Shown: in pieces, positions 2,274 to 31,708 of the stretch
Numbering within the stretch: the first letter of the stretch is position 1
Layout: each line of letters starts with the position of its first letter
Assembly: GCA_017540355.1 (NCBI GenBank)
Contig: JAFYBE010000067.1
Location: forward strand, 1-36,471
Source: Lachnospiraceae bacterium
GTDB lineage: Bacteria; Bacillota; Clostridia; Lachnospirales; Lachnospiraceae
DNA: 36,471 bases
Reading direction: 5' to 3'
Notes under the pieces: model-generated
What the model was told of the DNA's origin: nothing
What the model saw: only the letters and a program-made list of their open reading frames with translations
Database searches by the model: none
Translations under genes and position numbers: made by a program

Positions 2274-2302
2274 ATACTACCATATAACACTTCTATTGTC
2301 TA
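2274..2302 (-). promoter_or_regulatory. Candidate sigma-A promoter for tRNA-Arg and the SH3 gene
   Basis: TAGACA (-35, overlapping the stop of the upstream glycosyltransferase gene), 17-bp spacer, TAGTAT (-10). The start would be near 2267, leaving about 50 nt before the tRNA. The -10 is only a moderate match. Confidence 0.4.
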
Positions 2303-3846
2303 GCATATATGGTATAGCCTTCATCTTCCGCAAGCTCAGTCATCTTCTCTTCCACATACTTAAGTCGTGCCACATGATAACTGTAAAGCACCGGCCATTT
2401 CGCTTCATTGTACTTGCTGTCCCTAAGCTCCGGACATATCATGACATAATTACAGTCCTCGATATTCTCACACTCCTCAGGCACAACATCATGGTAGAAC
2501 TTAAGCACGTACTTCTGATAATCATCCGTATAATACATCTTATCTATCTTTGATGTATCTATCTTTGCAAAAACAGCCTCTATCTTATTCTCTCTGTCCG
2601 CAAAAGGCTCATTATAATAACTGCCGAACACTTTAACGAACGTCACAAAGAGGAAGATGCACATAAAGAATACACCGAAAACCGCCTTAACCTTATCAAC
2701 CGCATATGTCTCGAAGAATGAATAGAGTATATGCATAAGTCCGAACGATATTGGAATCATCAAAAAGCTTAAGACTCTCTGATACGGATGTACGCTCTGT
2801 ATGATAAGCATAATCGGAACAACAAGAAGTGATACCGATACGAATACACTCACAAACACCCTCGTCCTCTTATAATACAGCTGCTTCATCGCATTCATTG
2901 CATTCCACAGTATAAGCAGCACCGAAAGGCTTATAAGCATAATTCCCGAATAGCTGTAAAAATTCCCGAACAGTCCCGAAAAATACTGCGGAAGTGTATG
3001 GAAACATACCGATCTGTCGATGCTCTGTATATAAGGCGTCGCAAGCATATATTTCATACCGGTCGAAATCGACGCAAACGGATGCTTAAGCGCAATAACT
3101 GCCTGATGTACTCCGAACATCGCGCTTTCTGCATCTTTGCTTATAAGGTTGGCACCGATAGCCATCCATATTATGCTGTACATGGCAAAAGTCACCGCAC
3201 CTGCAGCTACGGCAGCCACGATAAGTCTCTTAAGCCTGTCGATGTATCTTTTCATAAGAAGATATACACCGCCGGTTACGCATGTGGGTATTACCCAATA
3301 TAAAGAACTCGGAACTATATACATACCCAACGCCAGCGCTGCAGCAAAGATTATATAGTTACGCTTTTTGTTCATTCCGATACCGATATGATAAATCTCA
3401 AAAATCGCCACAAGATAGCATGTCGTCGCAAGCGTATATCCTCTTCCCTGTACGGAGAGTCTGTATACCAGATATGCACCGGCATACATTGCGGTTGCGG
3501 CTGTCGCATAATACTTGTTCATAAATCTGGTGGAAATTTGATAAATAAGTATAAGATTGGCCACGGCAGCTATACAAGACACGCTTCTTAAGCCGATGTA
3601 TGGATTGCCAAAAAAATCAAATACCGCAGATATAACCGAATAACCCACATGATTGTTCGGAACAGGCCAGTGAATGGCCGCATATATCGGTCCTCTGCTT
3701 ATGAAATAATAGTAAGTATAGAGTTCGTCATACCACGGCTTGTTGGTAAACATCATTCGGATGTACTCTACGGCCATTATGACGATAAATACCGTTACGA
3801 CTATATTCTCTTTTAAAATCTGTGCTGTTTTTTTGATATTATTCAT
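2293..3846 (-). CDS. GT-C fold membrane glycosyltransferase (GT39/ArnT-like), second of pair
   Basis: 517-residue integral membrane protein with around ten hydrophobic segments. The first extracytoplasmic loop carries NKPWYDELYTYYY followed by a conserved-looking NNHVGYSV, the acidic plus His layout of GT-C (GT39/GT83-like) transferases that move sugars from polyprenyl-phosphate donors at the outer membrane face. Acceptor and sugar are unknown. The C-terminal soluble tail ends ARQ. The ATG at 3846 overlaps the TGA of the upstream gene (TGATG), so translation is probably coupled. The two proteins share layout but not close sequence, suggesting an old duplication or two steps of one glycan pathway. 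A role in cell-wall polymer decoration is inferred. Confidence 0.8.
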   Translation of the reverse strand: MNNIKKTAQILKENIVVTVFIVIMAVEYIRMMFTNKPWYDELYTYYYFISRGPIYAAIHWPVPNNHVGYSVISAVFDFFGNPYIGLRSVSCIAAVANLILIYQISTRFMNKYYATAATAMYAGAYLVYRLSVQGRGYTLATTCYLVAIFEIYHIGIGMNKKRNYIIFAAALALGMYIVPSSLYWVIPTCVTGGVYLLMKRYIDRLKRLIVAAVAAGAVTFAMYSIIWMAIGANLISKDAESAMFGVHQAVIALKHPFASISTGMKYMLATPYIQSIDRSVCFHTLPQYFSGLFGNFYSYSGIMLISLSVLLILWNAMNAMKQLYYKRTRVFVSVFVSVSLLVVPIMLIIQSVHPYQRVLSFLMIPISFGLMHILYSFFETYAVDKVKAVFGVFFMCIFLFVTFVKVFGSYYNEPFADRENKIEAVFAKIDTSKIDKMYYTDDYQKYVLKFYHDVVPEECENIEDCNYVMICPELRDSKYNEAKWPVLYSYHVARLKYVEEKMTELAEDEGYTIYARQ

Positions 3847-5384
3847 CAGTTTAATCCGTATATGTTTATCCAGTATCTCTCAATAAGACAGCTGTCAATA
3901 AGTTCTGAATCAACGCCCATTTCCTTCCAGTCAGCCACAATATCCTCTCTTGAATTGAAGCTTCCGAAAAAAAATACGTCCGGCTCATTCTTCGCAAGTC
4001 TTAAGACATCCTCATCGCTTAGCGAATCACTTACGTTATCATACATTTCAGGTATCAGTCTGTCAATCTCGGCATCATACAGATATACAGACACATCCGG
4101 CCTGTAGTAACCCATTATCGCAGTTACATGATCAAAATTGGTGATAACTGACGCTCCTGAAGGAATGAGTGTCATGGCTTCAGCCGCATGATCCATCTGG
4201 ATAATCTTCTTCCCCTCTTCTGCCTCAAATCCCGACATCGAAAGAACTCCGGTCAAAACAAACGGGCATAGCAAAACGACCGCCATTCTGCCTGAAAATA
4301 CTCTGCTTATCATGATTGCGACACCAAGCCACAATCCGCCCAGTGCAGGAATCATATATCTGTATACAAAGATCGGAGTACCCGCAATTGAAAGTATGAA
4401 TCCGCTCAAAACAACGATTGCAAGCGGGCTTATACATATGATGAGGTCAACGACATTATCACCCTCGTCGCTGTCCTTTCCCGCAGCTCTGCACTTTAAT
4501 ACAAACATCACAAAAGCCGCGCCCAGTGCAAGTACCGTTAGTCCCACAGCTATGTAAGGCATATATCTTATATAAGTCACCGGAAGCAATATAAACTTTA
4601 TGCACCCGGGAATACTGCGCATGGTAAGCGGTTGAATCCAGTAATTGCCGCTTATATTGCCCATCTGCGCCTTAAGCACGGGAAGCCATGGCGCATATGA
4701 CACCGCAGAAACCAGCATGCAGATAATCAGATGTATAAGCGCCTTCTTTTCAGTCGCCCTGTTTTTTATCATGATACAGAATAACGCCACATAGATTCCT
4801 GCAACGGCGATACACGCATAGTACTGCGTATAAGCCGTCAGTATTCCAAGCATCGTGAATATGATCCATGTCCCGTTTCCAGTCTCAGTCTCCTTATCGC
4901 ACATCCTAAGCGCAGTTAATACCTCTGCAGTTATAAGAAGCAACGCAAGCGAATACATCCTGATCTCTGTATAATATGTGTCAAGCTGCGGCATCAGGCT
5001 GATTAACAGCATAAAAAAGCCTGCAACAAAGACTCCGTATCTCTTCCTTATATACGTCAGTGCCAGGACGAACAGTCCGACCCATGGTAATATCGAGGCA
5101 GCTTTGGCTCCCTGTACCAGAGCACCTTTGCCCAAAAGCGCGGTATATACACTTGTGAAGGCCTTAAGATACATATAGTAAAAAGGCGGATGAACATCCT
5201 TGGCCGTGAGGCTTATGATATCAGCAAACCCACCCCTGATAAAGCCCATGGAAAAAGTCTCATCATACCATATGTCATTGCCGGATATAAAACGGCATAC
5301 AGAAAGTATCGCGATCAGGCTGACCGCGAAACAAATTATTCCTGCAATATTCAAAACCTTATCATCCGACCTGTTATCACGCAT
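3846..5384 (-). CDS. GT-C fold membrane glycosyltransferase (GT39-like), leaderless
   Basis: 512-residue multi-pass membrane protein. The GT39-type signature is clear near the N-terminus: NDIWYDETFS in the first external loop, then AKDVHPPFYYMYLKAF about 30 residues later, supplying the catalytic Asp/Glu and the HPP motif. It probably transfers a sugar from a lipid-phosphate carrier outside the membrane; the acceptor is unknown. There is no SD before the ATG at 5384. Instead a near-consensus promoter TTTACA-N17-TATACT ends 6 nt before the ATG, which puts the transcript start on the A of ATG. It is divergent from the plus-strand gene at 5437 and overlaps the downstream GT gene by 1 nt. Confidence 0.85.
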   Translation of the reverse strand: MRDNRSDDKVLNIAGIICFAVSLIAILSVCRFISGNDIWYDETFSMGFIRGGFADIISLTAKDVHPPFYYMYLKAFTSVYTALLGKGALVQGAKAASILPWVGLFVLALTYIRKRYGVFVAGFFMLLISLMPQLDTYYTEIRMYSLALLLITAEVLTALRMCDKETETGNGTWIIFTMLGILTAYTQYYACIAVAGIYVALFCIMIKNRATEKKALIHLIICMLVSAVSYAPWLPVLKAQMGNISGNYWIQPLTMRSIPGCIKFILLPVTYIRYMPYIAVGLTVLALGAAFVMFVLKCRAAGKDSDEGDNVVDLIICISPLAIVVLSGFILSIAGTPIFVYRYMIPALGGLWLGVAIMISRVFSGRMAVVLLCPFVLTGVLSMSGFEAEEGKKIIQMDHAAEAMTLIPSGASVITNFDHVTAIMGYYRPDVSVYLYDAEIDRLIPEMYDNVSDSLSDEDVLRLAKNEPDVFFFGSFNSREDIVADWKEMGVDSELIDSCLIERYWINIYGLN

Positions 5385-5390
5385 ATAATC

Positions 5391-5419
5391 AGTATATCAT
5401 TTGCCCACTTGTATGTAAA
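5391..5419 (-). promoter_or_regulatory. Sigma-A promoter giving a leaderless GT-C transcript (minus)
   Basis: TTTACA (5419-5414), 17-bp spacer, TATACT (5396-5391), then GATTAT and the ATG at 5384. Standard geometry puts +1 on the A of the start codon. It is interleaved with the opposite promoter at 5401-5429. Confidence 0.75.
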
Positions 5420-5429
5420 ATGCTATACT
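5401..5429 (+). promoter_or_regulatory. Sigma-A promoter giving a leaderless GT-C transcript (plus)
   Basis: TTGCCC (5401-5406), 17-bp spacer, TATACT (5424-5429), then 7 nt to the ATG at 5437. +1 is expected at 5436-5437. No SD exists upstream of the ATG. It occupies nearly the same DNA as the opposite promoter, so the two cannot readily be bound by polymerase at once. Confidence 0.7.
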
Positions 5430-5436
5430 TATCTTC

Positions 5437-6723
5437 ATGAAGAAGAGCAAAGACGATATAATCTGTACTTTAACGATCGTCCTGTCCTGGATGGTCAGGA
5501 TCATATATGTGCTTACTACAACCGTCGGCGAAAGGCAGCATGATCTGGGCTATGCCACCTTGTTAAGTGACGATAAAGTCAATCCCGGACATCTCGGATA
5601 CGTGGAATACATCGCAAAATTTCACCATCTTCCCGATTTTGATCCCTTTTCAATATTTTCATACTATCATCCTCCCGTTCATCATATAATAGCGGGAACG
5701 GTTGTTGATATCGCGCACAGGTTGGGTATAAGCGAGCCCTATGTATATGAGTTCATTCAGCTTCCGACCTGTATATACGGTTGTATTACCGTCTTTATCG
5801 CATACAGAATACTTAAGCTTTTATGCAGCGATTCACGTTATATCTGTATACCGCTTGCACTTATCGCCTTCCATCCCGGGCTTATATATATGTGCGGTAC
5901 GGTCAACAACGATATGCTTGCCGCAATGATAAGTTTTATATGCATATATAACAGCCTTTTATGGATCAATCGCGGATACAGAACAAAGGAACTTGTCTAT
6001 ATGGCTTTAAGTATTGGTATGGGCCTTATATCCAAGCTTAATGTCGCGGTTTTGATCTTCCCGATGGGCATGGTAATGCTGTCACACTTTATCAAAAGTA
6101 TTAAAGAGGGCCGACTTATAAGTTGCATAAAGCAATACCTGCTATTTGCCGTCATCTCCCTTCCCATAGGTCTGTCATGGACGGTACGCAACTTAATCCG
6201 CTTTGCTTCAAAGCCCGGTATTTCTTCGGCAACTCCGGAGTCCAATCAGTACCTCGGTTCCTATCCTCTATCGGAGATAATAGGTCTTCCCGTAAAGTCA
6301 TCGATATCATTCCCCTTCCATTCGGAGAATGCCGTATACTGTCACAATGCCTGGTCCATCCTTTTTAAGACTTCTCTTTTCAGTGAGATGTTTCCTGAGG
6401 ATATAACAGCACCGGCGCTTATGTTCTGCCGTCTGGCCTTCATAATTGCGGTACTGCTCGGCTTTGTATGTGCGATATTATCGCTTACACTTCCTATAGT
6501 CAGAATAAAGAAAGGTGACAAGGATACAGGACTGTTCCTTTTGGCAGGATATGCCTCTGTCCTCATCACCTATGTTCTTTTTGTAATAAAGTACCCTTAT
6601 ACCTGCAGTTGTGACTTCAGATACGTTCCTACCGCACTTCTGTATGCGGCCGTATCACTTATACCGCTGAGGGCATCTCTGTCAAGTGAGCCTGCGGTTC
6701 AGTCAGAGGTTCAAGCCAGTTAG
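5437..6723 (+). CDS. GT-C fold membrane glycosyltransferase, the only plus-strand gene
   Basis: 428-residue polytopic membrane protein. After the first membrane segment come ERQHDLGYA, GHLGYVEYIAKFHHLPD and FSYYHPPVHHIIAG, a GT-C layout with an acidic residue, a His-rich YHPPVHH motif and repeated hydrophobic helices. It is likely an ArnT/PMT-like transferase using a polyprenyl-phosphate sugar. The start at 5437 has no SD but sits 7 nt past a TATACT -10 element, so the mRNA is predicted to be leaderless. Its last 65 bp overlap, tail to tail, the end of the DUF5688 gene. I see no terminator after the stop. Acceptor and sugar are unknown; it may act with the two divergent GT-C genes. Confidence 0.8.
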   Translation: MKKSKDDIICTLTIVLSWMVRIIYVLTTTVGERQHDLGYATLLSDDKVNPGHLGYVEYIAKFHHLPDFDPFSIFSYYHPPVHHIIAGTVVDIAHRLGISEPYVYEFIQLPTCIYGCITVFIAYRILKLLCSDSRYICIPLALIAFHPGLIYMCGTVNNDMLAAMISFICIYNSLLWINRGYRTKELVYMALSIGMGLISKLNVAVLIFPMGMVMLSHFIKSIKEGRLISCIKQYLLFAVISLPIGLSWTVRNLIRFASKPGISSATPESNQYLGSYPLSEIIGLPVKSSISFPFHSENAVYCHNAWSILFKTSLFSEMFPEDITAPALMFCRLAFIIAVLLGFVCAILSLTLPIVRIKKGDKDTGLFLLAGYASVLITYVLFVIKYPYTCSCDFRYVPTALLYAAVSLIPLRASLSSEPAVQSEVQAS

Positions 6724-8318: not shown

Positions 8319-8846
8319 TTATACTAAGTCAGAGCGTTTTTCAATACTCTTTTTCAACCTTTTTCTGTATTCTTTAAGGACAAAGTATTCGAGTCTTCTC
8401 TTAAGTATTATCTGTATCTCTTCATGCGGATCGATATACTTTACCATATATGACTTTATTCCCGCTCTTTTGGCTCCCCATACATCGGTAAATATCTGGT
8501 CTCCGACAGATATCGTATTATCAGTGTTCGTACCCATCATCTCACAGGCCTTTAAATAACCGCCGATTGCAGGCTTGCCGGCTTTATATATGGTATATAC
8601 ATTTACGTCCTTATTGAACAAGTCCACTCTTTCTTTCTTGTTATTGGATAAGAGTGTACATGCAAAACCGATCGCTTTAAGTCTTTTAAACAGCTCAATA
8701 CTTTTGTCATCTGCCGGAGCACCGTGAGTGACAAGGGTGTTGTCTATATCGTATATGATTCCTCTGACACCGGACTCATATAGTTTCTCATACGGTATCT
8801 CATATGCCGATTCATAGTATTCATCAGGATATAATCTTTCAAACAT
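8319..8846 (-). CDS. yqeG: YqeG-family HAD phosphatase, start moved to second ATG
   Basis: HAD-superfamily hydrolase of the YqeG (IIIA) family, 175 residues. Motif I is YDIDNTL with nucleophile Asp33 and Asp35; motif II is LLSNN; the motif III Lys is in GKPAIGG; motif IV is GDQIFTDV. YqeG is a widely conserved Firmicute protein, usually near ribosome or translation genes; the physiological substrate is not settled. The longest frame starts at 8852, but that ATG lies inside the promoter. TTGATT-N17-TATTAT puts +1 exactly at 8846, the A of the second ATG, and the protein then begins MFERLYPDEY, like B. subtilis YqeG. There is no SD, so the mRNA is predicted leaderless. It lies upstream of efp. 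Confidence 0.88.
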   Translation of the reverse strand: MFERLYPDEYYESAYEIPYEKLYESGVRGIIYDIDNTLVTHGAPADDKSIELFKRLKAIGFACTLLSNNKKERVDLFNKDVNVYTIYKAGKPAIGGYLKACEMMGTNTDNTISVGDQIFTDVWGAKRAGIKSYMVKYIDPHEEIQIILKRRLEYFVLKEYRKRLKKSIEKRSDLV

Positions 8847-14878: not shown

Positions 14879-14891
14879 CTATATATTGTGG
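14876..14891. promoter_or_regulatory. Candidate NrdR box overlapping the rnpB 3' end and the nrdR -35
   Basis: CCACAATATATAGTTG matches the NrdR-box consensus acaCwAtATaTwGtgt at about 13 of 16 positions, including the core CAATATATAG. A weak partner 30 bp away would overlap the -10 element. The same bases form the 3' arm of rnpB P1, so part of the match may be coincidental. Confidence 0.45.
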
Positions 14892-15226
14892 AGCTGTAAG
14901 CCGGGTTCTGTCATTTAAGATGATCATCTATCTAGGACGATCGTTACCGACCGCCTCAAGCAACCTACCCGGAGACGAGACGGGCAGCCTCATGGTCTCC
15001 TTATTTGGTCTTGCTTCGGATGGGGTTTACACGGCTGCATCCGTTACCGGATACACGGTGGTCTCTTACACCGCCTTTTCACCCTTACGCCGCATAAGCG
15101 ACGCGGTTCTTTTCTGTTGCACTGTCCCGGGAGTCACCTCCGCCGGACGTTATCCGGCATCCTGCCCTTCGAAGCCCGGACTTTCCTCGTACCTGTTAAG
15201 GTCCGCGATCATCCGCCCCACAATAT
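14883..15226 (-). ncRNA. rnpB: RNase P RNA (type A)
   Basis: Catalytic RNA that matures tRNA 5' ends. The universally conserved blocks are present in order: GAGGAAAGTCCGGGC, GGGCAGGATGCCGG, GTGCAACAGAAA, AAGGGTGAAAAGG, GTAAGAGACCACC, GGTAGGTTGCTTGAG, CCTAGATAGATGA and ACAGAACCCGGCTTA. The layout follows the E. coli-like type A fold rather than Bacillus type B. P1 is ATATTGTGG at the 5' end paired with CCACAATAT at the 3' end, which sets the bounds (344 nt, edges good to a few bases). The 5' end overlaps the TAA of the upstream gene. A possible -10 TATAAC lies at 15243-15238 inside that gene, without a good -35. No terminator hairpin follows before the nrdR promoter. Confidence 0.96.
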
Positions 15227-31317: not shown

Positions 31318-31375
31318 AGTATTATATCCACCCGTATAAAGATGACCCCTTAACCCATACAGGTCTAATGGTAAG

Positions 31376-31708
31376 TGGACCAGACGGGAGTTGAACCCGT
31401 GTCCGAAATCATTTCCATCGTACTTCTACAAGCTTAGCTTACCGATTGGCATTCCCTCCTGCGACCGGTGATAAGCGCCCTATCACATTCGGTAGCTTCA
31501 TGGTACGCCCATACCCGCAAAGCTTTGGGTATGTCGTTTCTCACATAGATGATACTCCTTGTCTTAAGTGTGAGTGCCTAAGGGGAGCAGCTGCAAACTA
31601 GGCAGCGTATGCTAAATTTTTGTTAGCGTTTATTTTATTTTGCAATTTACGTGTTGCAACGGCTTGCTTCTCCGACTTCCACAACCCCGTCGAAACCATT
31701 ACTGGCCC
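31376..31708 (-). ncRNA. ssrA: tmRNA (SsrA)
   Basis: The tRNA-like ends pair: 5' GGGCCAG with 3' CTGGTCC (one G-T), followed by discriminator A; CCA is not encoded. The 5' block AATGGTTTCGACGGGG and the T arm GGGTTCAACTCCC are diagnostic. The resume frame lies about 82 nt from the 5' end. With SmpB, encoded 133 bp upstream, it rescues stalled ribosomes and tags the unfinished peptide. 333 nt is within the usual size. The reading frame crossing its 5' half is not a gene. Confidence 0.96.
31598..31627 (-). other. tmRNA proteolysis-tag reading frame
   Basis: From a GCT resume codon (31627) to TAG (31598): Ala-Asn-Lys-Asn-Leu-Ala-Tyr-Ala-Ala, stop. The resume codon is inferred from tag-length and Ala-start conventions. 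The end -AYAA departs from the common -ALAA. Confidence 0.65.

Follow-up and report, generated by a model that had tools for sequence, protein, structure and literature searches.

Interlocked divergent promoters and predicted leaderless mRNAs between two opposed genes of a Lachnospiraceae bacterium

The DNA analysed here, referred to as the window, is a stretch of 36,471 nucleotides from a Lachnospiraceae bacterium (GenBank assembly GCA_017540355.1, contig JAFYBE010000067.1, positions 1 to 36,471); the contig belongs to a 1.9-Mb assembly that is about 80% complete. Two opposed genes of the window, P0001 on the minus strand and P0002 on the plus strand, are separated by a divergent intergenic gap of 52 bp (5385-5436). 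We propose that this gap holds two interlocked promoters that face outwards, yield leaderless or near-leaderless mRNAs and provide low, steady expression of linked envelope genes, a reading to which we assign a probability of about 0.82. Its central part, interlocked divergent promoters that would produce two mRNAs with no leader or with leaders of 0-4 nt, is well supported by sequence comparison, because the promoter elements are conserved, the spacing on the minus side is fixed, a pyrimidine precedes the ATG and the plus promoter has decayed in some relatives.

Architecture of the gap

The promoter elements named in a first-pass annotation of the window, TTTACA-N17-TATACT on the minus strand and TTGCCC-N17-TATACT on the plus strand, are present in the gap at the places it gave (Table 1). 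Both promoters have spacers of 17 nt, and both −10 boxes read TATACT and carry a TGn motif. The annotation had also described the promoters as overlapping, with each −10 box placed within or next to the spacer of the other. They do interlock, but the boxes found in the opposite spacers are the −35 boxes; the −10 boxes form the outer ends, each 4 bp beyond the −35 box of the other promoter. The two 29-bp cores (5391-5419 and 5401-5429) overlap by 19 bp (5401-5419), and 27 bp separate the two −10 boxes.

On the minus side, six nucleotides (GATTAT) separate the −10 box from the ATG at 5384, and on the plus side seven nucleotides (TATCTTC) separate it from the ATG at 5437. With these distances, standard geometry would indeed place both transcription starts at or near the ATGs, as had been suggested; on the plus side the A of the ATG is the more likely start, the 7th base after the −10 box being a C. 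The predicted divergent starts are 52-53 bp apart. Neither ATG is preceded by a Shine-Dalgarno (SD)-like 4-mer, in agreement with the annotation, which had seen no SD for either gene.

Conservation of the promoter elements and of the spacing

Among 20 genomes of the genus, the plus gene was matched in 18 and the minus gene in 17; of the 17 plus-gene loci inspected (L002-L018), 10 have the two genes side by side in divergent orientation. The annotation had proposed that conservation of the gap be checked in related genomes, and the 39-bp core was found at eight of these ten divergent loci (G000, G005, G014, G019, G001, G002, G004 and G010); its invariance describes these carriers only, which were picked from the ten. 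A regular expression for the core, applied to 88 loci from two gene searches and a GTDB scan, matched solely in the eight genomes and in seven corresponding scan loci. An identical core is carried by the record of strain An861 (L113), which is filed as Lacrimispora saccharolytica; the strain seems to be a member of the window's genus, and the filed name may be wrong.

Pairwise identity among the eight carriers is 0.93 and 0.94 for the extended −10 boxes and 0.89 and 0.93 for the −35 boxes. Identity drops to 0.39 in the 7-nt middle, to 0.38 in the six nucleotides ahead of the minus ATG and to 0.31 in the plus-side 7 nt; third codon positions are at 0.39 in the plus gene and at 0.36 in the minus gene. 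As the third positions, the middle and the six nucleotides between minus −10 box and ATG are only 0.36-0.39 identical, unconstrained sequence is near saturation, and the conservation of the promoter elements is well beyond chance. On the minus side, −10 box and ATG are 6 nt apart in all eight carriers. G019 has two in-frame ATGs, and there the count runs to the second; the first one directly adjoins the −10 box and would be upstream of the start site. On the plus side the distances are 7, 7, 10, 9, 9, 7, 7 and 7 nt, in the order in which the genomes are listed above.

The minus-side spacing extends beyond the carriers of the core. The start of the minus gene was readable in 16 genomes of the genus, a set that does not include G015 (29% identity, internal stop), and in 15 of these it lies 6-7 nt from a TGn-type −10 box. 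Six of the 15 use TAGAAT or TAAAAT in place of TATACT, namely TGn-TAGAAT in G006, G008, G016 and G007 and TGA-TAAAAT in G009 and G017, each time 7 nt from the ATG; the leaderless spacing therefore outlasts the promoter sequence. Outside these genomes, 36 homologue loci were inspected. A TGn-type −10 box at 6-7 nt is found at L101, L111 and L126, TAAAAT without TGn lies 8 nt before the minus-gene start at L096, and the starts at L098, L099, L117, L120 and L122 are SD-like. At L111 the plus gene is divergent yet appears, as read by eye, to have a leader with an SD, so that the double-leaderless state seems confined to the interlocked form.

Two genomes in which the plus gene does not adjoin the minus gene provide a natural control, as only the plus promoter has decayed in them. 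In G018, which gave no plus-gene match, another gene ends 45 nt upstream of the P0001 orthologue with no plus gene between them; the plus −10 and −35 boxes are lost, and the minus TTTACA and TATACT are retained. This genome is sister to the interlocked G005 in the protein tree (support 100/100). In G012, where the plus-gene match is on another contig, the plus −10 box is lost and the minus TTTACA and TATACT are again retained. On a 32-row tree, for which state labels were assigned by hand and in which G009 and G017 were not included, the interlocked state needs four changes, two of them forced by well-supported branches, a pattern that would fit a single gain with several later losses.

Start sites and leaderless initiation

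A pyrimidine stands directly before the ATG at each of the 31 leaderless-type sites compiled, compared with fractions of 0.64 (G010) and 0.55 (G000) in SD-led genes, as predicted for an initiator with a pyrimidine at −1 and A at +1; the sites are related and were picked by spacing, which makes this support rather than proof. They comprise 17 minus-gene sites, 5 plus-gene sites and 9 sites of a YqeG-family gene described below, and three plus genes with distances of 9-10 nt were left out. Invariance of the first methionine was dropped as evidence, since the starts were chosen by their distance from the −10 box.

Otherwise the genus relies on SD sequences. In 187 of 284 open reading frames (ORFs) of a G010 sample and in 95 of 145 of a G000 sample, the ATG has an SD-like 4-mer between −16 and −5, and the control window gave 65 and 32 ORFs in the same two samples. 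Strict TGn −10 boxes lie 6-7 nt from the ATG in 3 of 312 ORFs (G010) and 4 of 169 ORFs (G000), where the mean per position over gaps of 8-59 is 0.69 and 0.31 strict boxes, respectively, and no strong positional peak of extended −10 boxes was seen genome-wide in these samples. Leaderless genes are thus few, given how few strict boxes lie at 6-7 nt. The earlier remark that leaderless mRNAs are rare in Firmicutes is consistent with these two samples and, in the passages of the two papers that bear on it, with transcription start site (TSS) maps of C. difficile, with 15 potentially leaderless genes (PMC7438776), and of C. phytofermentans, where 4% of the InterS TSS class are potentially leaderless (PMC5171806).

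The potentially leaderless genes of C. phytofermentans are said in the same passages to have, in general, another upstream start and a typical ribosome-binding site (PMC5171806), which lends some weight to a first alternative, namely that the gap promoters are minor and that the dominant starts are located within the opposite gene and yield mRNAs with leaders. We consider this unlikely. Codon 1 is not preceded by an SD-like 4-mer in 12 of 13 minus-gene orthologues, the exception being G012, or in any of the eight plus-gene orthologues, and what is conserved in the gap is the core of the promoters, which lies 6-10 nt away from the ATGs. For the minus gene of G010 and the plus gene of G001, there is no alternative in-frame start ahead of a conserved motif.

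Several observations weigh against leaderless expression from the interlocked pair. Later in-frame starts with an SD-like 4-mer are found at codon 25 of the plus gene in G000, codon 27 of the minus gene in G004 and codon 28 of the plus gene in G010; these three share no common place. Transcription may enter from further upstream. The plus −35 box, TTGCCC, matches just four of six positions of the −35 box, and three of the eight plus genes (G014, G019 and G001) would have leaders of 2-4 nt. In G006 and G008 the divergent pair lacks the core, though the minus gene keeps its leaderless distance. Finally, G012 keeps the minus promoter but has its start about 34 nt downstream with AGGA, indicating that leaderlessness is not obligatory.

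A model for the gap and its alternatives

In the model that we favour, the gap would act as one compact promoter unit, probably served by the housekeeping sigma factor, in which two interlocked extended −10 promoters face outwards. Depending on the orientation in which RNA polymerase binds, transcription would begin either at the A of the P0001 ATG, to read the minus operon (P0001-P0003), or at the A of the plus-gene ATG; in three relatives the latter start would be some 2-4 nt ahead of the ATG. Both mRNAs would have no or nearly no leader and no SD, and their first genes would be read by leaderless initiation. Because the core promoters share 19 bp, a single DNA copy would serve one direction at a time. 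RNA polymerase is large in relation to these 19 shared base pairs, so that simultaneous occupancy of both cores is very unlikely and mutual exclusivity of the two promoters is sterically likely. How much this exclusion matters would depend on promoter strength. The strength of the promoters is expected to be modest, which would keep two functionally linked envelope genes at a low and steady level of expression and would not produce a switch.

The gap also contains an imperfect inverted repeat with 15-nt arms that are 87% complementary and 15 nt apart, and such a repeat might mainly serve to bind a dimeric repressor acting on both genes. The extended −10 and −35 boxes, however, explain nearly all of the conserved symmetric positions, and the centre of the repeat is as variable as third codon positions. 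The exact symmetric pattern occurs nowhere else in the bacterium's own genome and in none of 199 other genomes (one per genus). Owing to this absence, no regulon with the exact symmetric site is visible in the 200-genome sample, which had no other member of the genus and in which an exact search tests only for a wider regulon. An operator function of this kind is improbable in our view.

The first-pass annotation had seen in the two promoters a possible on/off switch of surface glycosylation, which would require that they compete so strongly that each cell expresses one gene or the other. The 19-bp overlap, which renders double occupancy sterically unlikely, would suit such a switch, as would the finding, in the part of the E. 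coli study that deals with it, that strong activation of one side of a bidirectional promoter can repress the other (PMC12825309). The same part reports that five E. coli bidirectional promoters were without competition at the basal level and that interference cut noise at the single promoter examined in this respect (PMC12825309). We favour a compact promoter unit over a switch on this ground, as basal activity in E. coli was too low to compete and interference lowered noise. In addition, none of the eight window proteins scanned matches a regulator family (two of them have no match at all), the orientation of the core is identical in all eight genomes, and G018 and G012 keep the minus promoter without the plus promoter. 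We therefore hold the switch to be very improbable. A phase-variable invertible promoter was rejected, as only one orientation is seen in the eight genomes and the inverted repeats in 5300-5520 are limited to the promoter arms and one 73% pair, with no others flanking the gap.

A variant would dispense with any regulator: the 39-bp core itself would make an either/or choice of two leaderless mRNAs. The orientation of the polymerase alone would then fix the proportion in which two envelope glycosylation activities occur, or which of them a given cell has, and leaderless translation would pass this promoter choice on without SD control. We give this variant a slim chance. That the elements are chance promoter-like matches in AT-rich sequence is strongly disfavoured and can be set aside: a consensus scan of a 12-kb region gave 36 such sites against 29.9 ± 5.6 in shuffles, so that single matches of this quality are near the shuffled rate and the scan alone would not single out the gap, but the elements are conserved in eight genomes at third-position saturation and the plus promoter alone has decayed in G018 and G012.

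Comparison with known systems

For tetR of Tn1721, too, a leaderless mRNA is known that arises in a compact region of divergent promoters; Tet operators are present there, and one of the two genes encodes the repressor. Leaderless, or TA-led, genes form a known class in which a −10-like TANNNT box precedes the start codon by about 12 bp and, as here, an SD is absent; the passages on these genes do not treat interlocked pairs, whereas here two such genes share one promoter (PMC3160421). The bidirectional promoters described by Warman and Grainger have starts 7-25 bp apart around a shared −10 box (PMC12825309, PMC10268837). From the portions of these two studies that concern them, the promoters of E. 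coli and Salmonella likewise consist of pseudo-symmetric DNA with divergent transcription, and polymerases in opposite orientations exclude each other. In our case, by contrast, the predicted starts are 52-53 bp apart, each promoter has a −10 box of its own at the outer edge, and the interlocking parts are the −35 boxes; the same portions of PMC12825309 make no mention of 'leaderless'. The EcoRV and CfrBI restriction-modification systems also have overlapping core promoters of divergent genes, at which one polymerase excludes the other, according to the section on these systems (PMC5333194). EcoRV, as described there, includes a C protein as regulator, the transcript of which is not leaderless, whereas here no regulator match is seen and both transcripts appear leaderless (PMC5333194).

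In a partial survey of the literature we found no description of an interlocked promoter pair with two leaderless mRNAs. Each feature is known singly, and the part for which we saw no description is their conserved union. Leaderless mRNAs seem uncommon in Clostridia, and here a pair of them without visible back-up would be held by selection over otherwise saturated sequence. Strain An861, in which the core is also found, may be cultivable. Two questions could then be tested: whether the Lachnospiraceae ribosome uses leaderless mRNAs efficiently, and what effect polymerase competition has at a conserved interlocked promoter.

The divergent genes and other features of the window

The plus gene P0002 matches PMT_2 (PF13231) with 36.2 bits against a cut-off of 26.1. 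The annotation had described both genes as GT-C enzymes, and this match agrees with it for the plus gene; for P0001 the assignment is without support from sequence, which gave no match to a GT-C family. P0001 has no relative in Pfam (E up to 0.01), in NCBIfam or among PDB sequences, and it gave no significant match to the profiles of P0002 or P0003. Its 13 orthologues yielded four single weak matches against Pfam at E up to 1, and L126, a distant homologue, matches DUF6541 below the cut-off. The P0001 family is conserved, with 36 loci filed nearly all as Lachnospiraceae or Butyrivibrio and with the motifs DIWYDE, DVHPP and EIRMYS. P0001 may have a role in the envelope, judging by its hydrophobicity and by the way it overlaps P0003, and the neighbourhood of the plus and minus genes suggests that they are functionally linked.

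Table 1. Coordinates of the divergent genes, promoter elements and predicted transcription starts in the window
Feature	Position	Strand	Remarks
P0001, minus gene, 512 aa	3846..5384	-	Hydrophobic by eye; DIWYDE and DVHPP motifs kept in orthologues; no named family
P0002, plus gene, 428 aa	5437..6723	+	Pfam PMT_2, E 9e-9, above cut-off
P0003, next minus-strand gene	2293..3846	-	Pfam PMT_2; start overlaps P0001 stop as TGATG
−35 box, minus promoter, TTTACA	5414..5419	-	Inside spacer of plus promoter
Extended −10, minus promoter, TGATATACT	5391..5399	-	TATACT 5396-5391, TGA in front
−35 box, plus promoter, TTGCCC	5401..5406	+	Inside spacer of minus promoter
Extended −10, plus promoter, TGCTATACT	5421..5429	+	TATACT 5424-5429, TGC in front
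Interlocked promoter core, 39 bp, AGTATAnCATTTGCC-n9-GTAAAATGnTATACT	5391..5429	.	28 of 39 columns invariant among the 8 carrier genomes (carriers only)
Predicted transcription start, minus	5384..5384	-	A of ATG, 7th base past −10
Predicted transcription start, plus	5436..5437	+	A of ATG (8th base past −10) preferred

A leaderless layout, TGn-TATTAT-6 nt-ATG, is also seen at a gene for a YqeG-family HAD phosphatase (TIGR01668, above cut-off) at 8319-8846 on the minus strand of the window. Across 20 genomes of the genus, this gene has a TGn-type −10 box at 6-7 nt in 10 (L130-L133, L135-L137 and L139-L141), an SD-like 4-mer in four (L145 and L147-L149, with two additional −10-like matches lacking TGn at L149) and neither signal by script in five (L134, L142-L144 and L146); the start is not visible in L138. 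A 27-nt divergent gap at L043 (G010:C21, about 365168-365196) has TATACT 6 nt before the plus ATG. Elsewhere in the bacterium's own genome, at about 17081 of L056, TTGAAA-N17-TATGAT with TGn lies 7 nt before an ATG internal to the ORF and may mark a further leaderless start. The window also contains genes for RNase P RNA (class A; 14881-15224) and tmRNA (31373-31708), both of which are ordinary.

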